This document shows positions 79-31,632 of a DNA stretch of 40,234 nt, piece after piece. This DNA is from Candidatus Latescibacterota bacterium. Lineage in GTDB: Bacteria > Latescibacterota > UBA2968 > GCA-2709665. Position 1 is the first letter of the stretch. Every line of letters starts with the position of its first letter. The position numbers and the translations under genes were made by a program. The stretch is taken from positions 1 to 40,234 of the forward strand of contig JAAXHE010000222.1 in assembly GCA_012271065.1 (NCBI GenBank). Direction: 5' to 3'. Below the pieces are notes generated by a model. That model ran no database searches. It saw only the letters and a list, made by a program, of their open reading frames with translations, and was not told where the DNA came from.

Positions 79-1284
79 TTATCCCGCGTTGCCTCTTCCC
101 GGCTTCAGGGACCCTGCCCCCAGCGCGACCAGGGCGACTGCCTGAGCGGCGATTCCCTGCTCCATTCCTGCAAATCCCAGGCCCTCGGTCGTCGTTGCCT
201 TCACCGACAGCCGTTCCGTCGCGATTCTGAGCGCCCCGGCCATCCTTTCACGCATATGGGCGGCGTGCGGCGCAAGCTTCGGGCGCTGCGCGATCACGGT
301 GGCATCCACGTTTACAATTTCGGCCGCATTCTCGCGTGCCAGTTCCGCCACCCGCTCCAGCAGAATCAGGCTTGAAATCCCGGCGTATTCCGGATCGTCG
401 TCGGGAAAGTGATCACCGATATCGCCCAGACACATCGCGCCGAGTACGGCATCCGCAACCGCATGGGAAAGCACGTCGGCGTCGGAATGCCCGTGCAGGC
501 CCCGGTCGAACGGAACGGTCACCCCGCCCAGAATCAACGGGCACCCGGAAACCAGCCTGTGCACGTCGTAACCGTGACCCACGCGGAGATTCGATGGCAC
601 GCTCACCGTTCTGGATCTCAGGATCGAATCCGCCATCGCCAGATCCTCGGGCGCAGTAATTTTAAGATTATCCTCCCGGCCCCCCACCACGTATACCGGC
701 ACATTCAGTTGTTCGACAAGCGACGTATCGTCCGTACCTCCATACCCCCTCCGCGCGGCCTCGCCGTGCGCTTCCCGAAATATCGTCGCGCGAAACGCCT
801 GCGGGGTCTGAACGCACCACATTCGCGACCGGTCCAGCGTGTGCAGAACCCGTCCGTCTTCAATCTTCTTTACCGTGTCCGTTACGGGCGTACCCAACAC
901 AGCTGAGCCCTTCCTGCGCGCCAGATCGACGACAGCGTCGATCTGTTCGGGCAGTATCAGCGGCCGCGCCCCGTCATGGACGGCAATGACACTCGCGGCG
1001 GCCGGCACCGCCCCAAGTCCCTCTGCAACGGAGTCCTGACGCCGTTCCCCGCCCGCTACAACGGCGGTGACTTTTCCCATGTCCCACCGGCGGACGTCCT
1101 CCCGGCATCGATCCACGCGATCCGCCAGCGTGACAAGCGCCACGCGGTCGACCTGACTCGCGCGTTCGAACGCCGCCAACGCATGGAAAAGCAACGGACG
1201 CCCGGCCAGACTCATGAACTGCTTGGGCGGACCGCCACCCATCCGCCGGCCCTGGCCGGCGGCAAGCACAATGGCGTAGACCAT
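79..1284 (-). CDS. ispDF: Bifunctional MEP cytidylyltransferase / MECDP synthase (IspDF)
   Basis: Catalyses two steps of the non-mevalonate isoprenoid pathway in the cytosol: CTP-dependent activation of methylerythritol 4-phosphate and cyclisation to the 2,4-cyclodiphosphate. Residues 1 to about 228 are the IspD half, with the glycine-rich nucleotide motif LAAGQGRRMGGG at 8-18 and PKQ at 20-22. Residues 234 to about 395 are the IspF half, with metal ligands D240 and H242 in GYDVHR and H274 in LSHA; the H242-to-H274 spacing matches E. coli IspF. Both halves look complete, so this is a natural fusion of 401 residues. It lies 53 bases downstream of queA on the same strand and is probably cotranscribed. 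The intermediate enzyme IspE is not in the window. The ribosome site is weak, and the start was chosen because it begins directly at the IspD fold. Confidence 0.96.
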   Translation of the reverse strand: MVYAIVLAAGQGRRMGGGPPKQFMSLAGRPLLFHALAAFERASQVDRVALVTLADRVDRCREDVRRWDMGKVTAVVAGGERRQDSVAEGLGAVPAAASVIAVHDGARPLILPEQIDAVVDLARRKGSAVLGTPVTDTVKKIEDGRVLHTLDRSRMWCVQTPQAFRATIFREAHGEAARRGYGGTDDTSLVEQLNVPVYVVGGREDNLKITAPEDLAMADSILRSRTVSVPSNLRVGHGYDVHRLVSGCPLILGGVTVPFDRGLHGHSDADVLSHAVADAVLGAMCLGDIGDHFPDDDPEYAGISSLILLERVAELARENAAEIVNVDATVIAQRPKLAPHAAHMRERMAGALRIATERLSVKATTTEGLGFAGMEQGIAAQAVALVALGAGSLKPGRGNAG

Positions 1285-13535: not shown

Positions 13536-13627
13536 GACCTGCGATCCAATTCACACATTCGACGATGGCCGGAACCGCTCCGGGGGAGGCATTGAAGCCG
13601 GACGCCGGCGAATTCTGGAGAACAACC

Positions 13628-14809
13628 ATGCTCAGGGCAGGCGCCTCAAAAGTCAACATCACCCCGTTTCTGGGCGGTCCGATGGCCGGTTATTCGGCAC
13701 GCGACCGCGGAAGCGAGAGTATCCACGACGAACTTCACGCAAAAGCACTGGTGCTGGATGACGGGAGCACCGGCGTCGCGCTGATTACCACCGACCTCAT
13801 CGGCATCCACCGGGAGCTAGCGGCGCAGGTCCGCGGGCTCGTCGAAGCAAGTGTCGGACTTGGCCCCGACCGGGTGTGGATGACCGGGTCCCACACCCAC
13901 TTCGGTCCGGCCGTCAGCCCTGGCGGGACCGAGGACGAACAGGCGGGCCCGCATGACCGGTCGTATGCGGACGTACTGGCCGCGAAGCTGACAACCGCCG
14001 TCAAGCTCGCGCACGACCGGCTTCGCCCCGCCCGCCTCGGCGCGGGCGCCACCCGCGCCGAAGGCATCAGCTACAACCGGCGGCTCATCCGCCAGGACGG
14101 AAAGGTGGAAATGAGTCTCACGCTGCCGCCCCCCTACGAGGGATTGAAGTTCGGTCCGGTGGATCCGGAGGTGGGCGTGCTTAGAGTGGAAGGCGAAGCC
14201 GACGGCGAATCCATCGCCTCGCTCGTCAACTTTGCCTGTCACCCCGTCTCCAGCACGGACCGCAGGTACGAAATCACCGCCGACTATCCCGGTTACGCCA
14301 TGGACCTCATCGAGTCCGTGGAAGGCGGGACCTGTCTGTTCGCCCTGGGCTGCGCAGGCAATATCGTACCCATCCAACGCCAGGGCCGGTCCAAACGCCA
14401 TGTGGGTCTGTCGCTTGGCGGCTGCGCGTTGAACGCGCTTCAGTGGATCCGGACGACCGACCGGGTCCGTATCCGCGCGGCCAGAAGATCGATTGAATTG
14501 CCGCTGCGCAATCGTCGAGGCCGAGGGCGCAAAACCCGCCCTACGGAAATCCAGGTGTTCTGGCTCGGCGATATCCCCGTGGTCGGGCTGCCTGGTGAAG
14601 TCTTCGTCGAACTCGGACTTCGTATCAAGAAAGCCCTGGATGCCTCTCCGGTCCTGGTTGTGAGTCTCAGCAACGACAGTGCAGGATACATTCCGGTCCG
14701 CCGGGCGTACCGGGAGGGCGGCTATGAATCCCGCGTGTCTCCCTACGCCCCAGGCTGCGGTGAACTGCTCGTGAAGGAAGCCCTGGACCTGGCCGAATCG
14801 GTTCGTTAA
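13628..14809 (+). CDS. Neutral/alkaline ceramidase-like hydrolase, cytosolic form
   Basis: 393 residues, matching the N-terminal domain of the neutral/alkaline ceramidase family, whose founding members cleave ceramide amide bonds using one zinc. The ligand motifs are visible: GSHTHFGP near 97, NFACHPVSS near 203, and LPGEVF near 337. The family's usual C-terminal immunoglobulin-like domain is absent, so the true substrate may be another amide. No signal peptide is seen. The ATG at 13628 has TGGAGAA upstream; the frame is open to 13565 but that extension lacks conserved sequence. A secreted-looking paralogue follows 44 bases downstream, so the two are probably cotranscribed. Confidence 0.85.
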   Translation: MLRAGASKVNITPFLGGPMAGYSARDRGSESIHDELHAKALVLDDGSTGVALITTDLIGIHRELAAQVRGLVEASVGLGPDRVWMTGSHTHFGPAVSPGGTEDEQAGPHDRSYADVLAAKLTTAVKLAHDRLRPARLGAGATRAEGISYNRRLIRQDGKVEMSLTLPPPYEGLKFGPVDPEVGVLRVEGEADGESIASLVNFACHPVSSTDRRYEITADYPGYAMDLIESVEGGTCLFALGCAGNIVPIQRQGRSKRHVGLSLGGCALNALQWIRTTDRVRIRAARRSIELPLRNRRGRGRKTRPTEIQVFWLGDIPVVGLPGEVFVELGLRIKKALDASPVLVVSLSNDSAGYIPVRRAYREGGYESRVSPYAPGCGELLVKEALDLAESVR

Positions 14810-14853: not shown

Positions 14854-16167
14854 ATGTCGATACTTGCGATTCTTCTACTCTTTGCCGTCGTGCTGCACGT
14901 TACAAGATCTCGTGCGTCAGCCGCTGATGTCACGCTTGCAGCCGGCGCGGCAAGGACCGACGTCACACCCGATCCGGCGATGGTGAACTGGGTGGATGAC
15001 AGACCCTACGACGGCGTTCTGGATCCGCTCGTCCTGCGTGGACTCGTTCTCTCGGACGGCGCTACCGAGTTCGGCTTGATTTGCTGGGACCTCATCGACG
15101 CCACGGAGGAGTGTGTCATCGACGTGCGCCGGGCGGTTCGGGACGCAACGGGCATCCCCGATTCGCATGTCCTCGTGGCCGCATCGCACACCCATTCCTC
15201 GCCCCGGTCTCCGTTTGCCCCATCCACGTTTACCGGCCGCAAGAGCGAACGGTTGAGAGCGATCCTGGACGATCCCGTCTTCGAGGCCTGGAGCCGGCGT
15301 CTGCCCGGACAATGCGCGGAGGTGCTGAAACGCGCCCGTGACCGCCTGCAGCCCGTCACGATGAACATCGGCCGTGCGAATGCCTCGGAATGGCTGTTCA
15401 ACCGGCGGCCGCTGGATCCCGACGGCAACGTCGTTACGATGTTTCGGCCCGGCGATCCGCATTCGCTGCCCGACGGCCTGCGTTTCGGATCGCTGGATCC
15501 CACCCTGACCGTCCTCTCCCTTCAGAACCCCGGCGGCGCAAACGTCGCGACGCTGTACAGCGTTCCCTGCCATCCCGTTTCCATCTATCCCTGTCACCGC
15601 GGCGTCTCGGCGGACTGGCCCGGGCCGGCCAATCAGCGGATTTCGGAAGTCCTGGGAGGCGAAACCTTCTTCCTGCAGGGCTGCGCCGGAGACATCGTCC
15701 CGGCTGTTCGGGGAGAAGAAGCGCGCACGGAAATGGCCCGTTTCTTCGCGGAACGGGCCATCGCGGCGGCTGGGAATTCGCACCGCCTGCCGTCTTCACC
15801 GCTGAAAGTCGCTACCGGGATTGTCGGCTTGCCGCTCGTATCCGAAGCGCGAAACATTGCAGGCGCCGACATCCGGCCGGTCGAGATTCAGGTGGTCGTC
15901 TGCGGACCCTTCGGCCTGGCCGTCCTTCCCGGAGAACCCCTCAACGGGCTCGCGCGCGAGATTCAGGCGCGATCACCGCTCCCGCACACGCTTGCGATCG
16001 GCTATGCCAATGGGCGCGGCGTGAGCTACGTGGGACTTCCCGGAGAAAAAGCCAGGGGCGGATACGAAGCAGGGGCGGGGCAGGGTACCGAAGAAGCCGG
16101 CGACTTTATGATCCGGACCGCCGTTCGGCTTCTGCAGGAAACGGTTGACGGCACTTCAGAGGGTTAA
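14854..16167 (+). CDS. Neutral ceramidase-like hydrolase, exported form
   Basis: 437 residues, a paralogue of the preceding gene. It starts with a hydrophobic signal segment (ILAILLLFAVVL, about residues 3-14) and a likely cleavage after SRASA, so it is exported. The zinc-ligand motifs are ASHTHSSP, VPCHPVSI and LPGEPLNGLA. Like its neighbour it lacks the C-terminal domain of classical ceramidases. Its last 62 bases overlap the end of the convergent Gfo/Idh/MocA gene; both reading frames look genuine up to near the overlap. The pair of exported and cytosolic paralogues may act on the same type of amide on the two sides of the membrane, which is inference. Confidence 0.85.
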   Translation: MSILAILLLFAVVLHVTRSRASAADVTLAAGAARTDVTPDPAMVNWVDDRPYDGVLDPLVLRGLVLSDGATEFGLICWDLIDATEECVIDVRRAVRDATGIPDSHVLVAASHTHSSPRSPFAPSTFTGRKSERLRAILDDPVFEAWSRRLPGQCAEVLKRARDRLQPVTMNIGRANASEWLFNRRPLDPDGNVVTMFRPGDPHSLPDGLRFGSLDPTLTVLSLQNPGGANVATLYSVPCHPVSIYPCHRGVSADWPGPANQRISEVLGGETFFLQGCAGDIVPAVRGEEARTEMARFFAERAIAAAGNSHRLPSSPLKVATGIVGLPLVSEARNIAGADIRPVEIQVVVCGPFGLAVLPGEPLNGLAREIQARSPLPHTLAIGYANGRGVSYVGLPGEKARGGYEAGAGQGTEEAGDFMIRTAVRLLQETVDGTSEG

Positions 16168-17483: not shown

Positions 17484-19031
17484 TCACGTCTCCTTTTCGT
17501 CTCGTGAACGGTCGGGAAACAGAAGAGAGCCGAGAACCATCAGGACGAGCGCCAGAACGGTCACCCCCAGGCCGATGTGCGCACCGGTGAAGGCGTCCAG
17601 ACCCAGTGCCCTTTTCACCGGAGTCAGGCCGGTAACGGCAGCGGCGCCGGCCACAAGGGCGAGGTACGCCCCGGCGGTGCTGGCGCGCTTCCAGTAGAGG
17701 CCGGCGAGAAGCAGGGCGAACGCGCCCGTGAAGTAGATGGCGCCGCTCACGAGCATGTAGTCCCAGAGGTCCTGGCCGAGCTCGTACCAGAGCCCCCACA
17801 CGAGCAGAAAGGCGCCGATGACAAATATAAAGATCCGGGAGAGCGTCAGGCGCGCGCGCGTGGAAAGGGTATCGCCGGTGGCGGGGGCGACCACGTCGTG
17901 CGTGAGCACCGAGGACCAGCAAAGCAGGTAGCTGTCGTGGGTGGACATGAATGCGGCAAGCAGCCCCGCGCCTATCAGACCGATGAGACCGGCGGGCAGG
18001 ATCTGGCTGAGGAAGACGGGCATGGCCATAAGGGTCAGGTCGGCATTCCCCGTGGGCGCCCCGGCGGCGGAGAAGAAGACCGAACGGGTCACATCGTTCT
18101 GGTAGAGATAGACAAGGGCGCAGATTCCCAGAAACTGGGGCACCATGAATCGAACGAGGAATCCGATGGCCGACCAGGCGTAGAGTTTTTTCACCACCGA
18201 GGTACTCTCGGCGGCGCATGCCCTCATGACAGCGGTCTGCCACACGGCGCAGGAGACGATCCCGGCAGTGAAGATCATCCAGACGACGTACGACGGCCCG
18301 AATCCACCCCCCGCATGAAGTGGATCGAACCCGGGTTCGCCGTGAATCGACGCAACCGTATCCACGATCGCCGACCAGCCAAGCCTGTCCACGGCGATAC
18401 CGCAGGTGACGATAACGCCCACGGAAAGCACGATAAACTGGATGTAGTCGGTGAGCACAACCGAGACCATGCCCCCGAGAATGGTATATATTAGAACCAG
18501 CAGGAGCATCACGGTCATGATCAGGCCGACCGACGTGGGGTTTGTGATACCGGTCAGGCCCGCAACAAAGATCGCGCCCGCTTTGAGGAACAGACCCATA
18601 TTGAGGATCCCGGAAAGGGCGAGAAGCAGGCCGCCGAAGATGCGGACGCCCCGGCTGAACCGTTTTTCGTAGAATTCGGGAATCGTCATCACGCCCAACT
18701 CGCGAAGCGGGACCACGATAAACCCGGTCAGGCCGATGATCAGGGTCACAATGCCTGCGATGAGACCGATGTGAAAGGCGGCGAACCCGCCCGTGAATCC
18801 CTTCTGGGCGGAATACATGACCGTCACGAGCCCCAGTTCGCTGCCGATCATGGTGGCAACGGCGAGATACGGTTTCAACGAACGACCGGCGACGATATAG
18901 TCGCTCATGTTGCGAATGTAACGGTTGGCGTATAGACCGATCGCAACCGTGCCCAGCATATACAGGCCGACAATCGCCCAATCGATTGCGCCGAAGTTGG
19001 AACTGATGCTGTTCAGGAGGTCGGATGACAT
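17484..19031 (-). CDS. Sodium:solute symporter family transporter
   Basis: A 515-residue integral membrane protein of the SSS family with about 13 predicted helices. Family features include the N-terminal YIVAGRSLKPYL, the LLALSGILNMGLF helix, and VVLTDYIQFIVLSVGVIV near the sodium-site region. It would import an organic acid, sugar or amino acid with sodium. Its neighbours (enolase superfamily, beta-decarboxylating dehydrogenase, M19 and M20 hydrolases) point to a hydroxy-acid or amide-linked substrate, which is inference. A 52-residue one-helix protein follows three bases downstream. A longer open frame on the same strand (17332-18981) is a shadow with no hydrophobic pattern. Confidence 0.93.
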   Translation of the reverse strand: MSSDLLNSISSNFGAIDWAIVGLYMLGTVAIGLYANRYIRNMSDYIVAGRSLKPYLAVATMIGSELGLVTVMYSAQKGFTGGFAAFHIGLIAGIVTLIIGLTGFIVVPLRELGVMTIPEFYEKRFSRGVRIFGGLLLALSGILNMGLFLKAGAIFVAGLTGITNPTSVGLIMTVMLLLVLIYTILGGMVSVVLTDYIQFIVLSVGVIVTCGIAVDRLGWSAIVDTVASIHGEPGFDPLHAGGGFGPSYVVWMIFTAGIVSCAVWQTAVMRACAAESTSVVKKLYAWSAIGFLVRFMVPQFLGICALVYLYQNDVTRSVFFSAAGAPTGNADLTLMAMPVFLSQILPAGLIGLIGAGLLAAFMSTHDSYLLCWSSVLTHDVVAPATGDTLSTRARLTLSRIFIFVIGAFLLVWGLWYELGQDLWDYMLVSGAIYFTGAFALLLAGLYWKRASTAGAYLALVAGAAAVTGLTPVKRALGLDAFTGAHIGLGVTVLALVLMVLGSLLFPDRSRDEKET

Positions 19032-19176: not shown

Positions 19177-20178
19177 CTACCTCCACTTGAACAAGACACC
19201 CAGCGCATCTGTCGGGCTATCGGCGAGCATGGTGTAGATCTCCTGGCACTGTTCCGGATCCGCGACATGGGTGATAAGGTCTTCGACCGGCAATTTGCCC
19301 TCGCCCATCAGGCGCATCACCAGCCTGCGGTCCCGTTCCTTCGCCCATCGGTAATATATGTGGTCGGCCTCCGGCGTCTTGGGCTGGTGGGCGCCCAGGA
19401 TGCTGACTTCCCGCAGATGCACGTCGGCCAGGAAATCCATGTCCACGGTGCCGCGCGGCGAACCCAACGCGACCACGCGGCCCGCGGTGCACGCGACCCG
19501 GACGGCGGTGGGATACACGGCGGGCTTGCCGGTCGCTTCGATGACGACGTTGGCGCCGTCTTCCACGCAGCATTGTCCGACCACATCCCTGACGTCGTCC
19601 ACGTCGCCGGGATTGATACAGATGCCGGCGCCACGGCTGCGGGCAATATCCAGGCGAAAACCGTCCAGATCGATGGCGATAACCGGAAGGGCGCCGGAGA
19701 GCCGCGCGAGGGTTGCCGCGAGCTGACCGACAATACCCAGGCCGATGACAACGACAACCTCGCCCAGTTCGATGCGCGCCACGCGGACTCCGTGGATGGC
19801 GATAGCGCCCATGACCATAAAGGCGGCGGCCCTGGACGACACGGAATCCGGGACCTTCACGTAGAAGGCCCTCCCGCCGTAGAGAATGCAATGGCTGGCG
19901 TGGTTACCCTGGCCGGCGACGCGGTCGCCCGGGCGGATGCCTTCAACGTCTTTGCCGACTTCCAGCACGGCGCCGACGTTGCAATACCCGGTGGCGCGGG
20001 GAAACCTTGCGGGATTCCCGGGTTCTCCGCCGTGGGTCCATCCGTGGATCTCGGTGCCCACGCTGACGGCGGTGTACTCGTTTTCGAGAAGGATGCCGTC
20101 ATCCGGCAAGGGCCCCGTTTCGAACGGCGCGACCTCCATCCGCCGAATACCGGGAATCAGGAGACGACTCGCTTTCAT
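19177..20178 (-). CDS. Medium-chain dehydrogenase lacking the catalytic zinc ligands
   Basis: 333 residues of MDR fold. The usual CGTD motif of zinc enzymes reads SVGTE, and the structural-zinc cysteine cluster is absent, so it probably works without zinc. The Rossmann motif VVVIGLGIVGQLAATLA is intact, followed by the acidic nucleotide-binding residues in IAIDLDGFR. The ATG at 20178 has AAAGGA seven bases upstream; the further 48 residues of open frame to 20322 look non-coding. It lies between the M19 peptidase and the symporter in the same direction, so it is probably part of the catabolic operon. Its substrate is unknown. Confidence 0.88.
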   Translation of the reverse strand: MKASRLLIPGIRRMEVAPFETGPLPDDGILLENEYTAVSVGTEIHGWTHGGEPGNPARFPRATGYCNVGAVLEVGKDVEGIRPGDRVAGQGNHASHCILYGGRAFYVKVPDSVSSRAAAFMVMGAIAIHGVRVARIELGEVVVVIGLGIVGQLAATLARLSGALPVIAIDLDGFRLDIARSRGAGICINPGDVDDVRDVVGQCCVEDGANVVIEATGKPAVYPTAVRVACTAGRVVALGSPRGTVDMDFLADVHLREVSILGAHQPKTPEADHIYYRWAKERDRRLVMRLMGEGKLPVEDLITHVADPEQCQEIYTMLADSPTDALGVLFKWR

Positions 20179-20264
20179 CTGTATGTCCTTTCGGGTGCTT
20201 GAAGGCCGGCAGGTACCCGTATCAGCAGCGGATGCAGGTACCAGCCAGGGGCCGGGCGCGGTCT

Positions 20265-21302
20265 CTACGCCTGCCCGCGGTCCAGGGTTTGGCGGAAGAG
20301 CCGAAGGAAGTTCCCTCCCCACACCTTTCGGATTTCGTTTTCGGTAAGACCGCGAGCGAGCATGGCGCGGGTGAGGCGCACAAGCTTCGAGACGTCCCCG
20401 AAAACAGGCGTCTGTGAACCCATGCCGTCGTAATCGGAACCGACGCCGACGTGGTCGATGCCGACCAGGTCCGCCACGTGACAGATATGGTCGACCATCC
20501 GGTCCACGGAAGGATTCTCCGGATCGATAAAACCCGGGAGAAACGCGATGCCCATCACCCCGCCGACCCCGGCCAGCGCCCTGAGCTGATCGTCGGTCAG
20601 GCAGCGCCAGTGGTTGCAGACGGAGAAGGCCGCGGTGTGGGTCATCGTCACCGGGAGCGAAGACTGCTCCAGCACCTCGTAGAAAGCCTTATCGTTAATA
20701 TGGGCCAGGTCCGTGATGATGCCCAGCCGGTTGCTCTCCTCGAGTACGGACCTCCCGAAGTCCGTCAACCCGACGGCATTTCTGCGTTCGCGGTCGCGCT
20801 CTACAGGCGTGCAAGGCCCGAAAGAACTCCTGCTGCCCTGCAGCAGCGACGGGTCGTCGCCGCCTTCGCCGTGGGTGATTCCGATACACCGAACTCCCAG
20901 GCGGTGGTAGAGACGCAGTGTATCCATTTCGCCTTCCAGCCAGCGTCCGGCGCCTTCGATAGTGAGCAGGATCCCGATTCTTCCGGACGTTCTTGCCCGT
21001 TCAACATCCCGTGACGAGAACACCAGCATCAGGTCGTCGGGATAGAGTTCCACCGACGCCAGGGTCTGCTCCAGGGTAACCCTGACGTTCGCCGTGGGCC
21101 CGTTGCCGACCACGAAGAAGCCGGCGTCGAACCCGCCTTCTCGCATCCGCGGAATGTCCATGTGATACGCGAGGTCCCGTCTTTTCAGGTCCATGGGACG
21201 ATCGCCCCGGTGTACGTGCTCCACCGGCGTGTCGTTGTGGCCGTCAACGATAAGGCAGCGGTCGTGTGCCGCCTGCGCTTCTTCAAGGGTGATTTTCGGC
21301 AT
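20265..21302 (-). CDS. Membrane (renal-type) dipeptidase, peptidase family M19
   Basis: 345 residues. Family M19 enzymes are binuclear zinc hydrolases that cleave dipeptides and related amides. The metal ligands can be placed by comparison with renal dipeptidase: H22 and D24 in VDGHND, the bridging E116 in LLTIEGAG, H201 in DLAHIND and H222 in MTHTAA. GVGSDYDGMGS carries the late catalytic aspartate. There is no signal peptide or lipobox, so it is cytosolic, as most bacterial members are. An AGGA site lies eight bases before the ATG. Together with the M20 enzyme just upstream it gives the cluster two amide hydrolases. Confidence 0.93.
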   Translation of the reverse strand: MPKITLEEAQAAHDRCLIVDGHNDTPVEHVHRGDRPMDLKRRDLAYHMDIPRMREGGFDAGFFVVGNGPTANVRVTLEQTLASVELYPDDLMLVFSSRDVERARTSGRIGILLTIEGAGRWLEGEMDTLRLYHRLGVRCIGITHGEGGDDPSLLQGSRSSFGPCTPVERDRERRNAVGLTDFGRSVLEESNRLGIITDLAHINDKAFYEVLEQSSLPVTMTHTAAFSVCNHWRCLTDDQLRALAGVGGVMGIAFLPGFIDPENPSVDRMVDHICHVADLVGIDHVGVGSDYDGMGSQTPVFGDVSKLVRLTRAMLARGLTENEIRKVWGGNFLRLFRQTLDRGQA

Positions 21303-21360: not shown

Positions 21361-22683
21361 CTACGGCGGATCGACGGGTACTTTCTGTCTCTTGCTGACC
21401 AGTGGATCGTAGGTAAATCCTTCGGCGCGTTTTTCGAACTCCGCGCGCGCTTTTTTCAATTTCTCCGGGTCCCGGCACAGGTCGACAGCGCTCCCGGCGA
21501 AGACTTTGGCTGTCTGCCGGACCGCGCGCTCGGCGAAGGGCAGGGCGGCCTGCGCGGCCATGTCCCGGTGGTGGCCGGGGGTTCCCTTCGCATAACAGAC
21601 CATCTCGAAGCGTCCCAGAGGGGCCAGCCAGGATACGTTATCCTCGTCCGTAGATCCCCTGCCCTGCGAGCCGCTGCCCTTCGCGATTTTCGTATTGAAA
21701 CCCTTCTTGTAGCCAAGGGCCTCGGCGTGCTCTATGTCGGCTTCCGTCGGTTTGGGAGGCCCGAAGAGTTTCAGGTTCTTCCGGACGATCTCACACATCG
21801 CCTTATTGGGCAGACGCGGGTACACGGCGGTGATACGCGACCATTTCATCTTCGTATCCGTCGCCCTGGCGGCGCCCCGGGCGCAGGCGGTGAGGCGTTC
21901 ACGCACTTCGTCGACCTGCGCGCGGTCCTTGCCTCGAACGAAGTACCAGATCTTGGCATAGGCCGGCACCACGTTGGGCGCGTCGCCTCCATCGCGGATC
22001 ACGGAGTGGATCCTGACGTTTTCGGGGACATGCTCCCGGAGATAGTTGGCGGCGATATCCGTGAGCATCACCCCGTCCAGCGCGCTGCGGCCCCGGTGGG
22101 CCGACGCGCCGTGGGCGGTGCGGCCGAAGAACTCATAGACGAGGGAGTCCAGCGACGACCCGCCGTGGTTGTTGACGCCCGAAGCATCCTCCGGATGCCA
22201 CGCAAGGCAGACGTCCAGGTCCCGGAAGGCGCCGTCGCGGGCCATGTATACTTTGCCTCCCAGGGTTTCCTCCGCCGGACAGCCATAATAGACGATTTTG
22301 CCCGGTGTTCCGGTTGATTCGAGGACTTTCGCAGCGGCGACCGCACCCACGGCCGGGGCAACGCCCAGGAGGTTGTGACCTCAGCCGTGACCCCATTGAC
22401 CTTCTTCGGGGCCGCAGCTGGGCAGCGCGTCGTACTCCCCCAGCAGTCCGACCGCCGGTTCTCCGGTTCCCCGGGTAGCGCGAAATGCTGTGGGAATTTT
22501 CGTGAACGGAAATTCGACGTCGAAGCCCCGTGAGTCCAGGTAGTCCCCGATGGCCCGGGAGGACTTGACCTCGCGGAAGGGCCGCTCCGCCCAGCCGTGC
22601 ACCTTCCTCGAAAGTACCCTTGCCCGTTTCGACTCGGCCGCGACCGCGCGGTTGACGAGACGCTTCTTTTCTTTTCCTGTCAT
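21361..22683 (-). CDS. M20 amidohydrolase (AbgB-like) with in-frame TGA, candidate selenoprotein
   Basis: Read through one TGA at codon 101 (22381-22383), this gives a 440-residue M20 peptidase resembling p-aminobenzoyl-glutamate hydrolase subunit B and aminoacylase-1-like proteins. The TGA lies inside GQWGHG-*-GHNLLG, where the family has cysteine (GHGCGHN), a metal ligand. The other ligands are intact: H103, E138/E139 in CPAEETLGGK, and H163 in AWHPED. Both halves are in the same frame and read as normal protein. Just after the TGA is a hairpin with a GUU loop, as in bacterial SECIS elements. The ATG at 22683 has GAGGG seven bases upstream. Alternatives are a TGC-to-TGA mutation, giving a recent pseudogene, or a sequencing error. 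Confidence 0.75.
22353..22383 (-). promoter_or_regulatory. Candidate bacterial SECIS next to in-frame TGA
   Basis: On the minus strand the TGA at 22383-22381 is followed after 11 bases by CCTGGGC-GTT-GCCCCGG. This folds as a stem of two GC pairs, one U-C mismatch and four pairs, with a GUU triloop. The loop G is base 19 after the TGA, close to the loop G position in E. coli fdhF and inside the spacing reported for bacterial SECIS elements. The fold was judged by eye. Confidence 0.5.
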
Positions 22684-22790: not shown

Positions 22791-23879
22791 CTACGGATGA
22801 ACGATGGCATCCACGACCGCGTCGCCCACCCCGGTTGTCCCGGCGGCGCCTCCGAGATCGGCCGGGTGGTTCTTCGGATTCTCCAGCGCCCGATCGACGG
22901 CGCGGTCGATTGTGTCGGAGGCGGCGATGGCCTCCTGATCGTCATGGCGGGCACCCAGCCAGGACAGCATCATCCCGGCGGAGAGGATCTGGGCCATGGG
23001 GTTGGCGATGCCGTTCCCGGCGATATCCGGCGCGGTGCCGTGGGATGGCTGGAAGACGCCGTAACGGTCGCCGACGTCGGCCGAGGGCGCCATCCCCATG
23101 CCGCCGATGGTTGCGGCGGCCAGGTCCGAGATGATGTCGCCGAACATATTTTCGGCGACGACGACGTCGTACCAGGAGGGGTTTCGCAACTGGTACACGG
23201 TGAACGCGTCCACGTAGGCGTAGTCCCGTTCAACGTCGGGATAGGATTCCGCGACCTCGTCGTAGATCTGTCTGAAAAACGCCATGCTCTTCAGAATGTT
23301 GGCCTTGTCGACGGAGGTGACGCGGCTCCTGCCGTCGGCGTGCGCCCCCTTCCGCTGCCTTGCGATTTCAAAGGCGTATCTGACGATCCGCTCGGTACCG
23401 GCGCGGGTGATGACCATGTTATCCACGGCAAGGCTGTCTCCAAGCCGGACCCCGGCGCCGCGGGAGGCGTAGAGGCCCTCGGTATTCTCACGCAGGATAA
23501 CGTAGTCGAGCGGCGGATTCCCGTTCAGAAGCGGCGGCACGCCATGATATTTCTTGATTGGCCTGATTCCGGCGTAGAGGTCCAGTTCGAAGCGCAGCGT
23601 CAGTTGCGGCGCGATTTCCGTGCCGTCGGGAAAGCGGATTTCCGGGTCGCCGGCGGAACCGAAAAGCACGGCGTCCGCCTTCTTGCAGGCGTCGAGCGTG
23701 GCTTCGGGGAGGTCATCTCCGGTTTCGGCGTAACACCCGGCGCCGACCGGATGTTCGGAGAAGGTGAAACGAAGATCGGGATGCGGCTCCTCGAGCGCCA
23801 GAAGCACTTTGAGCGCTTCCGCGACGACTTCCGGGCCGACGCCGTCTCCGGGGAGTACGGCGATGTTGTACGTGGGCAT
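22791..23879 (-). CDS. Isocitrate/isopropylmalate dehydrogenase family (possibly tartrate/malate type)
   Basis: A 362-residue beta-hydroxyacid oxidative decarboxylase. Motifs: IAVLPGDGVGPEVV at the start, DYVILRENTEGLYASRG for substrate binding, SVDKANIL with the catalytic lysine, the metal aspartates in FGDIISDLAA, and the NAD loop HGTAPDIAGNGIANP. Without leuB-type neighbours, and next to an enolase-superfamily enzyme, it is more likely to act on a tartrate- or malate-like acid than in leucine synthesis; this is inference. An AAGGA site lies six bases before the ATG. It starts 24 bases after the enolase-superfamily gene. Confidence 0.9.
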   Translation of the reverse strand: MPTYNIAVLPGDGVGPEVVAEALKVLLALEEPHPDLRFTFSEHPVGAGCYAETGDDLPEATLDACKKADAVLFGSAGDPEIRFPDGTEIAPQLTLRFELDLYAGIRPIKKYHGVPPLLNGNPPLDYVILRENTEGLYASRGAGVRLGDSLAVDNMVITRAGTERIVRYAFEIARQRKGAHADGRSRVTSVDKANILKSMAFFRQIYDEVAESYPDVERDYAYVDAFTVYQLRNPSWYDVVVAENMFGDIISDLAAATIGGMGMAPSADVGDRYGVFQPSHGTAPDIAGNGIANPMAQILSAGMMLSWLGARHDDQEAIAASDTIDRAVDRALENPKNHPADLGGAAGTTGVGDAVVDAIVHP

Positions 23880-23903: not shown

Positions 23904-25085
23904 TCAGCGGGATCGCTGGCGATCATCGATGCTGACACGGAATCCGCCCTCCGACTTCACGCCCCGTTCCAGCGCGTCCGGTTCGACGTCGAATCCCGCG
24001 CCGGGCGTCTCGGGCACGATCAGCCTGCCGTTGCGCATCTGCCATCCGTCCAGGGCGATGCCCGGCATGTCCGCCGGGGCCGCTTCCAGGAGGCTGTAGT
24101 TGGAAATGGAAGCGGCGAAGTGAGCGTGGGCGAATCGTTCGACGACACTTCCCCAGCAATGAGGGGCGCACTTCGCACCCCAGGGCTCGATGCGGTCCGC
24201 GGCGGCTTTCCACCACGTCAGCCCCTTGTAGCGAAAATCGTGCTGCACGATATCGATCCATCCACTTTCGACCATATCGAAGAAGTCAGGCGGAGGCGGC
24301 CCGGACTCGCCGTCCGCCACGAGCGTATTGTAACCCTTCCGGTCGATGGCTTCCTTGAACGCCTCGTTGAACGCCCGGTCTTCCGGGAAGGGCTCTTCGA
24401 ACCAATAGACTCCGGCATCCCGGCAGCGTTCAAGGATGTCAAGAGCGATATTGAGCGTGGTTCCGTTGTTGGCGTCTATGAGGATTTTCGCATCCGGTCC
24501 CGCAGCCTCCCGGACCGAGTGGATCACCAGCACGTCCCGGTCCGTTCCTTCCCGGACGGGCATCCACCGCGCGCCGCGCCCGATCTTGATTTTGAAATTT
24601 CGGTAGCCGTAATCGTGCCCGGTTCGGACTTCCTCGCGGAAGATCCTCCGCGCCTGGTCGTCGGTCGCTCCCAGATCGTCGATGTAGACGGAGCCGTCGT
24701 AGAGTTCGACTTCCCGGGAACCGCGCGCGCCCAGGAGTCGATAAAGGGGCACGCCTTCACATCTGGCGGCCAGATCCCACAGTGGAAGGTCTATGGCCGC
24801 GCCATCGCCGGTTGACCCGACCGGAAATTGAAAAAGCTCCAGGGGGCGCATTCCGAGAAGTGCTTCGGCGCGCGCCCGGTCGAGGGTAGACCAGCCGATG
24901 CCCACGGCGCCGCCAGCGGTGCCGATGCGCACGACCGGATCGGTGACCGCCGGACCGTGTACGCCGATACGCGCGTTGGATCCGATGTTGCGCGGGCGCG
25001 TGCCGTGGAGGACCACCTTTTCGATTCTGACGATAGGATCGGAAAAAGCACTGCGCATAAGGGGTTTCCGGGAACCGGGTTGCAT
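23904..25085 (-). CDS. Enolase superfamily enzyme (mandelate racemase/sugar acid dehydratase type)
   Basis: About 393 residues. Members abstract the proton alpha to a carboxylate with magnesium, acting as acid-sugar dehydratases or racemases. Visible residues: the KIKIGRG (KxK) motif, metal ligands in LIDANNG, WFEEPFPED and ADGES, and a histidine in CAPHCWGS as second acid/base. The start is uncertain: ATG at 25085 (weak GGAT site) or at 25058; the frame is open to 25235. It is the first gene of the central cluster and diverges from smc. The 358-base spacer 25086-25443 should carry promoters for both; TTGACC at 25179 is a possible -35 but no convincing pair was found. Confidence 0.88.
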   Translation of the reverse strand: MQPGSRKPLMRSAFSDPIVRIEKVVLHGTRPRNIGSNARIGVHGPAVTDPVVRIGTAGGAVGIGWSTLDRARAEALLGMRPLELFQFPVGSTGDGAAIDLPLWDLAARCEGVPLYRLLGARGSREVELYDGSVYIDDLGATDDQARRIFREEVRTGHDYGYRNFKIKIGRGARWMPVREGTDRDVLVIHSVREAAGPDAKILIDANNGTTLNIALDILERCRDAGVYWFEEPFPEDRAFNEAFKEAIDRKGYNTLVADGESGPPPPDFFDMVESGWIDIVQHDFRYKGLTWWKAAADRIEPWGAKCAPHCWGSVVERFAHAHFAASISNYSLLEAAPADMPGIALDGWQMRNGRLIVPETPGAGFDVEPDALERGVKSEGGFRVSIDDRQRSR

Positions 25086-25430
25086 GTTCGATCCGGTAAA
25101 GTACGCCAAAAACCGGCGGTTGGAAATCAAAAAAGCCGGTGTCGAAAGGCCCCGTCTGTCGCACACGGGAATTAGGTCTTGACCGGCGCTACAAGATATA
25201 GTACTTTTCAGACACCGCAGCGGATTATTCCCCAATCTGTTGCGTATTCCTCACCTCCCCTTCGTTCCCCTTTCATTCTCATACTCGCTATTTCAGGCCA
25301 ATAGCGAGCGTCCGGCACAGTCCGGGTCATCATACGGCGGATCGGCGCGGCCTCGTTTCCTCCTTGCCGTCGCGCTGCATCTGACTCGTCCCGTTCGTAT
25401 GTACATACAGGCCGGATGCGTATGTCTTTC

Positions 25431-29490: not shown

Positions 29491-31632
29491 TCACACGGAA
29501 CCCAGGCTCTTCAGGATCTTCGCGACAACACCATCCGCATTGGTGACTTCGAATCCGTCCAGCCGCTCGACGATAATCCCTCTCGGATCCACAAGGAAAT
29601 ACGCGGGTATCGCCCGCACGTTGTAGGCGTTGGTCGTGCCGGAACCCCACACCCCGGAACGCACGTGCACCCCTTCGATCCCGTGTTTCTCGATGGCTTT
29701 ACGCCACGCGGCGTCGCTCGAATCCAGCGAAAGGTTGACGAAAACCACCGGTAGATCGGCGGTTTTCTTCTTTAATTCCCGGATGTGCGGCAGGTTGGCG
29801 ATGCATGGCCCGCACCAACTCGCCCAGAAATCCAGCAGGACTACCTTGCCCCTGAACTGGCTCAGCGACACGGGTTGACCTTCCGGATCCCTCAATGTGA
29901 AATCCGGCGCAGGACGGCCCGGCCGCAGCGCCATCGCCTTGTCTAGCGCCGCCAGAACTGCCGCGTTGTATTCCGGATAGGGGTTGGTCGCCCGGAATTC
30001 CTTCCAAGCGCGTTGGAGTGACGCGAAGCTTTGCCTGCCGCGTTCAAAACCACGGATCAATTCTCCGGCGAGGAACCAGTAGCGCACTCTCCCCTTAAGC
30101 TTCTTCTCTGCCAGATCGTACCGGCTTGTAAGCGAGGAAACAACCGTTCGTTTTTTAATTGCGTAGATCGAGTCGAGCTTCGCCTGTACCGACTGAGACA
30201 GACCCAATCCCGAGAGGTCGAGCTTCTGAGACAGCCTGAGCGGTTGACGGTTATTGTAAATTGAGTCAATCTGAGCCTTTTGCCCTTTCGACAGTTCAAA
30301 TTCAATAAGATCGATCTTCTCTGAGAGCTTGAATGGCTCCCTTGCCAGAGAATCCATTTTTATTTCGAGAGGCAAGTAAAACGCCAACATCCCGCCCGTT
30401 GTAGCCACCCTGGGTTCCTTCTCCTTACTGGAAGAGGTTATGCTATAGGTCTTGGATTTTTCGTAGAGGGAGTCGACTTCAGCTTGCGCGGTTTCCGAAA
30501 GTCCAAAGGCCGAGAGATCGTAACGCTCGGAGAGTGTGGGGAGTCGTTTATTTTTGTACATCGAGTCGAGCCGCGCCTGAACAGCCGGAAAGAAGCCCAA
30601 CGCTGACAGATCGACCAATTTCGACAGCATCGGGCGTAGACCGTACCTTTCGTAAAGAGAGTCAAGTTGGGCCAGAGTCTTCTCCGACATCCCCAATCCC
30701 GACAGGTCATAGCGTTCGGACAGCCTCGTTAGCCTAGATCGCCTGGGCTCCTCGAATTCCCCGCGGTCTCTCGGTGGGCGGCCAATCACCCCACTTGGCA
30801 GCATGGATGGTCTGGACAATATGGCATCTGAGAACTCCCGATCCAGTACATCGATGAGAAATGACTGATAGGGTTCCACCCCAATTGCCCCTTCATCGAC
30901 CAGGGGTACTTCTTTGACAAAGTCGTAATATTGCGGCGGAATGCTTTTGTCGATGCTTCCCACGGCGAACCGGAAATTGGCCGCGTAGGAAAACCTCAGG
31001 TCGGCCCAGAGGTAATTCAAGTAGCGCGATGAATATTCGACAAATCCGGGAGAAAACGCGTATTTTGTGCGCCGCATTTCCATGTATTCGAGCTGATCGG
31101 TGCGCCACCTGTCCGCTATGCGAGTAAAGACATCCACGTCCAGATCCTCAGAGGCTACTTCGCGCTGGAACGCCGAGAATTGCGGGACCCACTCGGCGAT
31201 AAAGCGGCTGTTGTCCGCGTTCCTGCCACTGAACCGATAGGAGGTATAGAGATGTCCGGGATGGATTGAAATATGCAGACTGTCCCCCGGTTCGACGAAG
31301 CAAATCAGCGGACTTTGCTTCATAAGAAACGCCACCGCCTGCCGCACCGGTTTCCAAGGGACGCGCTTGCCCTTGTAGCTGCCACGCACGAGGGTACCGC
31401 GCACGACTGGAATCTCCAAGACGAAGCGGTTCCGACTGTCCAGATTCACGCGCTGCTCGGCCTTCCTGCCCAGCGCAGCAGGCGTGTCGTACTTGAACGT
31501 GATTTCCCGCGAGACCGGGTCCCGGACTTCGCCGGTGATAATCGCGACCGATGACTCACTGCTTTCCGCGGCCGGACCGGCAGTTGACATCACGAGTATC
31601 GCGACGAGGATAAGTCTGGATATATTCTTCAT
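29491..31632 (-). CDS. Secreted TlpA/ResA-like thioredoxin-fold protein with novel tandem repeats
   Basis: 713 residues. A signal peptide (MKNISRLILVAILVMSTAGP) is followed by a region of about 270 residues resembling the extra N-terminal domain of TlpA-like proteins. A repeat region spans about 303-510. The C-terminal thioredoxin/AhpC-like domain starts at 573 (PAPDFTL) with the redox motif WCGPC (C607, C610) and the cis-proline region AIPAYFL. The repeats follow LSERYDLSGLGLSE-x-x-QAxLDSLY, starting near 304, 335, 367, 436 and 467, with a partial unit at 501 and a degenerate one between 400 and 434. I know of no named family for them. The likely location is periplasmic or exported. An AGAGGA site lies eight bases before the ATG. 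It has no obvious operon partner. Confidence 0.88.
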   Translation of the reverse strand: MKNISRLILVAILVMSTAGPAAESSESSVAIITGEVRDPVSREITFKYDTPAALGRKAEQRVNLDSRNRFVLEIPVVRGTLVRGSYKGKRVPWKPVRQAVAFLMKQSPLICFVEPGDSLHISIHPGHLYTSYRFSGRNADNSRFIAEWVPQFSAFQREVASEDLDVDVFTRIADRWRTDQLEYMEMRRTKYAFSPGFVEYSSRYLNYLWADLRFSYAANFRFAVGSIDKSIPPQYYDFVKEVPLVDEGAIGVEPYQSFLIDVLDREFSDAILSRPSMLPSGVIGRPPRDRGEFEEPRRSRLTRLSERYDLSGLGMSEKTLAQLDSLYERYGLRPMLSKLVDLSALGFFPAVQARLDSMYKNKRLPTLSERYDLSAFGLSETAQAEVDSLYEKSKTYSITSSSKEKEPRVATTGGMLAFYLPLEIKMDSLAREPFKLSEKIDLIEFELSKGQKAQIDSIYNNRQPLRLSQKLDLSGLGLSQSVQAKLDSIYAIKKRTVVSSLTSRYDLAEKKLKGRVRYWFLAGELIRGFERGRQSFASLQRAWKEFRATNPYPEYNAAVLAALDKAMALRPGRPAPDFTLRDPEGQPVSLSQFRGKVVLLDFWASWCGPCIANLPHIRELKKKTADLPVVFVNLSLDSSDAAWRKAIEKHGIEGVHVRSGVWGSGTTNAYNVRAIPAYFLVDPRGIIVERLDGFEVTNADGVVAKILKSLGSV

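Follow-up and report, generated by a model that had tools for sequence, protein, structure and literature searches.

Why should the only internal stop codon of an otherwise intact metallohydrolase gene fall exactly on the codon of a metal ligand? The question is raised by an M20D-type amidohydrolase gene of Candidatus Latescibacterota bacterium, located in a stretch of 40,234 nucleotides (contig JAAXHE010000222.1 of assembly GCA_012271065.1), the whole of which we refer to as the window. There, 440 codons precede the final stop of the gene, and the single internal stop, a TGA, sits on the cysteine (Cys) of the GHGCGHN motif, so that the protein would read GHG-U-GHN. From sequence evidence it is very probable that the gene encodes a full-length M20D metal amidohydrolase, that UGA 101 is read as selenocysteine (Sec) by means of SelA, SelB, SelC, SelD and a hairpin, and that Sec replaces a bridging Cys.

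A conserved TGA at the metal-ligand cysteine

The gene and its predicted metal site comprise the following features (residue numbers count from the ATG at 22683):

21361..22683, minus strand: M20D-type amidohydrolase gene with one predicted selenocysteine, 440 aa (ATG at 22683, TAG at 21363-21361; TIGR01891)
22381..22383, minus strand: in-frame TGA, codon 101, putatively read as selenocysteine; position of the metal-ligand Cys in homologues
22375..22377, minus strand: His103 (of U-G-H), predicted metal ligand; invariant; counterpart of His-107 of 6slf
22267..22272, minus strand: Glu138/Glu139 (PAEE), predicted general base and metal ligand; invariant; Glu-141 of 6slf is a ligand
22195..22197, minus strand: His163, predicted metal ligand; invariant; likely counterpart of His-168 of 6slf
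21571..21573, minus strand: His371, predicted metal ligand; invariant; likely counterpart of His-370 of 6slf

With U read at codon 101, the protein scores 181.1 bits against the TIGR01891 profile of NCBIfam (curated cut-off 153.75), and the M20 dimerisation domain PF07687 is likewise above its cut-off. PF01546 (Peptidase_M20), listed for relatives such as P0008, was not reported for the window protein at an E-value of 0.001.

The initial annotation of this DNA had pointed to codon 101 (22383-22381) as the sole in-frame stop, placed at the cysteine of GHGCGHN, and had noted that H103, E138/E139 and H163 were preserved; both statements hold. The columns C/U101, H103, E138, E139, H163 and also H371 are invariant in an alignment of the window protein with 23 homologues (24 sequences with identity down to 36%, U read as C). 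The matching cysteine of a solved M20D relative (Cys-105 of 6slf) bridges two zincs, and by analogy with solved Cys relatives we infer that selenium at residue 101 is a metal ligand, a metal-bridging role being likely. Glu138 and Glu139 presumably divide the roles of general base and metal ligand between them.

Of 60 related genomes, the nearest of which (G001) has a 96% identical M20D-type protein, 23 carry an ortholog with an internal TGA (G001-G004, G006-G021, G026, G029 and G039); a phylum-wide search of 64 genomes at an E-value of 1e-60 returned no further TGA ortholog. In all 24 TGA sequences (the window and 23 genomes) the TGA occupies the same codon, that of the Cys of GHGCGHN. One of them (L026) is partial and runs off its contig, its end not being visible, and all the others terminate in TAG or TAA. 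The scattered stops that would betray a pseudogene are missing from the orthologs, as the extra stops in four of them (L007, L008, L013 and L020) all lie upstream of the start. Synonymous divergence among the TGA orthologs reaches saturation. For nine of the 23 partners, crude Nei-Gojobori estimates of dN/dS are 0.09-0.24 upstream of the TGA (six of the nine unsaturated) and 0.07-0.15 downstream (seven of the nine unsaturated); the downstream half is therefore not dead. By these estimates purifying selection acts on both sides of the TGA, and the in-frame TGA, judged by its conservation, is not a product of decay, in line with the remark of the initial annotation that random decay rarely strikes this one codon alone.

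Probable signals and machinery for selenocysteine insertion

Two features lie downstream of the TGA:

22342..22365, minus strand: frozen synonymous stretch, codons +6 to +13; six of six testable columns invariant
22338..22355, minus strand: hairpin of the selenocysteine insertion sequence (SECIS) type, 7-bp stem and 4-nt loop, 32 nt after the UGA

The alignment offers 123 testable columns, in which a four- or six-fold degenerate residue is invariant. Seven of them also keep the same codon throughout, namely all six at codons +6 to +13 and one of the 117 others (hypergeometric p = 1.6e-9). When an interval of nine codons is slid along the sequence, the ten of 287 positions under the strongest constraint begin at +1 to +10. 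Counted from the U of UGA, the hairpin stem pairs positions 29-35 with 40-46 around an RGGU loop; of the 24 sequences, the window and four relatives have GGGU and 19 have AGGU. All 140 stem cells pair, and two of the pairs vary (G-C/G-U and C-G/U-G); when the 3' partners are slid by +3, 85.7% of cells pair, and the other five slides give 28.6-57.1%, as against 100% in the true register. The isolated hairpin has an energy of -9.3 to -11.4 kcal/mol in all 24 rows. Its spacing of 32 nt, loop of 4 nt and stem of 7 bp agree with the published model of bacterial SECIS elements, so the bacterial SECIS envisaged by the initial annotation has a conserved candidate. Three of the seven hairpin pairs are lost in the Cys gene of G024, the sole genome with a close Cys ortholog (L025, 66%).

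The decoding machinery selA, selB, selC and selD, to which the initial annotation had looked as a touchstone, was found in related genomes. Among the 23 TGA genomes, tRNA-Sec (65-75 bits) and selD are above cut-off in all, and selB in 22, the remaining one (G014) having a contig-end fragment. In G001, the genes for tRNA-Sec, SelB and SelA lie together on contig C25. ARAGORN assigned the anticodon tca to the seven tRNA-Sec loci that it returned (eight submitted). The machinery also occurs in genomes without an M20D Sec gene, so the link between gene and machinery is one-directional. In G024, tRNA-Sec, selA, selB and selD were all below cut-off, with the best tRNA match at 46.1 bits versus a cut-off of 47, the level of secondary matches in other genomes; G024 thus fits the rule that Sec forms were seen only alongside the machinery.

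As a separate observation, the selD gene of G001 (L066) is a UGA-containing selenoprotein gene in its own right and has a hairpin with a GGUC loop; 40 of the 47 selD matches that pass the cut-off across the 60 genomes contain a single internal TGA, whose place was inspected in G001 and G022.

Several results weigh against the decoding of UGA 101 as Sec or at least temper it. selA is above cut-off in 21 of the 23 TGA genomes; G039 has a contig-end fragment, and in G014 the search did not find the gene. The sel genes are known from relatives (nearest G001), not from the genome of the window itself, and those Sec-locus genomes whose records are described are all metagenome assemblies. Since G024 is 86% complete, its lack of sel genes is uncertain, and we rejected its gene as a clean Sec-to-Cys reversion, L025 falling in a separate Cys clade. 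As to the hairpin, its stem is nearly invariant and shows no double compensatory change, so that covariation is uninformative. Codons +6 to +16 fold no lower than synonymous recodings drawn from the codon usage of the gene: across the 24 Sec rows, 20-83% of 500 recodings reach the same stability or a greater one. As GC-rich sequence folds well anyway, this comparison of energies is no evidence here. The hairpin is part of the minimum-energy fold of a 33-nt stretch in 17 of the 24 rows, and the window is among the seven preferring another fold, also when 60 nt are folded. With these points taken into account, Sec at codon 101 still has about as much support as sequence by itself can give.

Cysteine counterparts and rival explanations

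The initial annotation had left it to homologues to tell whether TGA or Cys occupies this position, and both occur: TGA in the 24 orthologs and Cys in the database proteins. Among the best 120 of 7,997 database matches (8,000 scored), 104 cover the codon-101 column, all with Cys and none with another residue, and 16, representing 456 member sequences, start downstream of it. One of the latter (P0014) is 97% identical to the window protein. In the tree, 15 of these 16 proteins fall within two groups that contain TGA genes (P0041 lies outside), which leads us to infer that gene finders cut the M20D protein at the TGA, losing the first ~100 residues; the downstream starts vary among relatives.

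The Sec rows form two groups in the tree, one of family f1 and one of f2 and f4, and Cys rows lie both next to these groups and within them. One gain of Sec followed by loss, or two gains, may account for this. Two Cys forms, P0003 and P0004, are nested inside the second Sec group (f2 with f4) and are better candidates for reversion than G024; both are known from protein records.

Three further M20 matches with a stray stop were considered as Sec enzymes and rejected: in L069 the TGA precedes the probable start; L070 (contig C97 of G040) has it elsewhere in the protein, with the metal Cys intact; and L071, a broken fragment, stops short of the metal site. No second Sec M20 family was thus found among these three. 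In the L070 paralog, the lone in-frame TGA does not stand at a cysteine (RLG-TGA-VKEG) and is probably due to a lesion or an error.

Could the UGA of the window gene be something other than a Sec codon? A sequencing error or recent single-base decay has nothing in its favour and a practically negligible probability, given that the same codon is found in 23 other genomes at synonymous divergence up to saturation. It is also very improbable that the UGA is a true stop splitting the gene into a ~100-residue product and a ~329-residue protein initiated at GTG 22350. The 16 downstream-starting proteins with their 456 members would agree with such a split, but their differing starts are what is expected of gene finders cutting at a TGA, 104 of the best 120 homologues join both halves in one protein, and in 24 of 24 sequences the stop occupies the metal-ligand codon and is followed by frozen synonymous sites and the SECIS-type hairpin. 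A reading of UGA as Cys or tryptophan by a suppressor or altered tRNA is less probable still. Cys would restore the family residue; however, TGA is a general stop in the window, closing 13 of the 26 open reading frames selected as likely genes, and thus is not generally reassigned, the Sec machinery of the relatives includes a UCA tRNA-Sec, and the SECIS-type hairpin would be left without a purpose.

A different alternative accepts Sec and questions its role, which might be redox or regulatory instead of or besides bridging, e.g. an oxidation switch, perhaps with Cys90 (codon 22416-22414, minus strand). Most uncharacterised selenoproteins are probably redox proteins, according to PMC13188914, and this Cys, which precedes Sec101 by 11 residues, occurs in all 24 Sec rows. 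Against this stands its equal presence in all 104 Cys homologues, which means that Cys90 is not tied to Sec, and its absence from the four most distant M20D rows of the 24-sequence alignment. Moreover, the residue of 6slf that matches Sec101 is the one bridging the metals, and none of the other ligand columns varies. We consider the redox or regulatory role unlikely, if less so than the other alternatives.

The reading of UGA 101 as a Sec codon for a metal ligand suggests the following mechanism. The gene would be translated into a full-length M20D-type metal amidohydrolase, with the UGA at codon 101 decoded as selenocysteine by an ordinary bacterial SelA/SelB/SelC/SelD system and Sec insertion directed by the hairpin just downstream. 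Sec101 would take the place of the Cys that bridges both metal ions in 6slf and so give the dinuclear centre a selenolate bridge; the centre in turn would activate water for the cleavage of an amide or peptide bond. More broadly, we think it probable that this is a selenolate-bridged hydrolase in which selenium tunes Lewis-acid hydrolysis and not redox chemistry, that three or more bacterial families have it, and that databases list it without its first 100 residues.

Genomic context and comparison with known systems

Neighbours were compared at ten Sec loci (L055-L064, up to 6 kb of flank), which come from the same records as ten of the 23 TGA genomes:

22791..23879, minus strand: isocitrate/isopropylmalate dehydrogenase family (PF00180), conserved neighbour, 8/10 Sec loci
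23904..25235, minus strand: enolase-superfamily (MR/MLE) enzyme (PF13378), conserved neighbour, 8/10 Sec loci
20265..21302, minus strand: M19 membrane-dipeptidase family (PF01244), neighbour, 5/10 Sec loci
19177..20187, minus strand: zinc-type alcohol dehydrogenase family (PF00107), conserved neighbour, 8/10 Sec loci
17484..19031, minus strand: sodium:solute symporter (PF00474), neighbour, 4/10 Sec loci

This conserved cluster with dehydrogenases, an enolase-superfamily enzyme and often a dipeptidase and a symporter makes a catabolic role likely, the predicted substrate being an N-acyl amino acid, a dipeptide or a similar amide. L061 and L062 (7 kb) have none of the shared neighbours, and L065, a 35% relative from Synergistaceae, is without any of them as well.

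Elsewhere in the window, scans of its whole length against Rfam and for tRNAs gave no match. The product of the plus-strand gene at 13565-14809 matches PF04734 (neutral/alkaline ceramidase, N-terminal); the protein of the adjoining gene (14854-16167, plus strand) has no Pfam match, and its relative at L056 is also weakly matched by the 13565-14809 protein (28%, partial). The minus-strand gene at 29491-31632 encodes a protein of 713 aa whose C-terminal end carries a redoxin/thioredoxin-type domain; the long N-terminal part before it contains several repeats of a motif like LSERYDLSGLGLS...LDSLY. A single reading frame at 79-1284 (minus strand) has motifs that we take to be those of fused IspD and IspF.

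Three published lists, namely a table of 119 selenoprotein families and subfamilies (PMC13188914), an 87-family table (PMC9312934) and a set of nine new deep-Sep families (PMC12013277), include no M20 enzyme or amidohydrolase, and none of the three has a hydrolase with a Sec bridge. Searches of full-text papers listed no report of an M20 selenoprotein, some of the papers being judged by title and opening of the abstract, with supplements, preprints and most subscription papers outside their scope. The M20D amidohydrolase would thus be a selenoprotein family missing from these published lists, with an unusual role for selenium: a dinuclear metallohydrolase with Sec at the bridging-ligand position contrasts with the expectation that selenoproteins are mostly redox proteins. 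Together with close natural Cys forms (P0003 and P0004), the Sec forms make a matched pair for probing selenium at a metal centre, which could address metal preference, the pKa of bound water and oxidation resistance. Annotation of such enzymes appears to drop the first ~100 residues, as in 16 of the best 120 proteins.

How does the enzyme compare with known systems? At the metal position, its solved M20D-like relatives have Cys instead of Sec: HmrA (3ram) and human PM20D2, or Xaa-Arg dipeptidase (7yh4), each with 28% identity in structural alignments, and the N-alpha-acyl-glutamine aminoacylase CsAga (6slf; 17% identity), with its zinc-bridging Cys-105. The YgeY family selenium metabolism-linked hydrolase (NF009555) is of the M20 type, too, and is linked to selenium by name; its profile weakly matches one of the 24 members of the set A1 (E-value 7.9e-5). 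The YgeY family itself is not known to be a selenoprotein family. UshA-like selenoproteins and a trypsin-like serine protease of a 2022 list are likewise predicted selenoproteins named after hydrolases, but both belong to other families, the former with CxU or CxxU motifs. Sec as a metal ligand is, indeed, already known, since in formate dehydrogenase and [NiFeSe] hydrogenase, according to a review, it likewise sits on the active-site metal. These are, however, redox enzymes employing Mo/W or Ni, whereas the M20D gene encodes a hydrolase in which Sec is predicted to bridge two metal ions.
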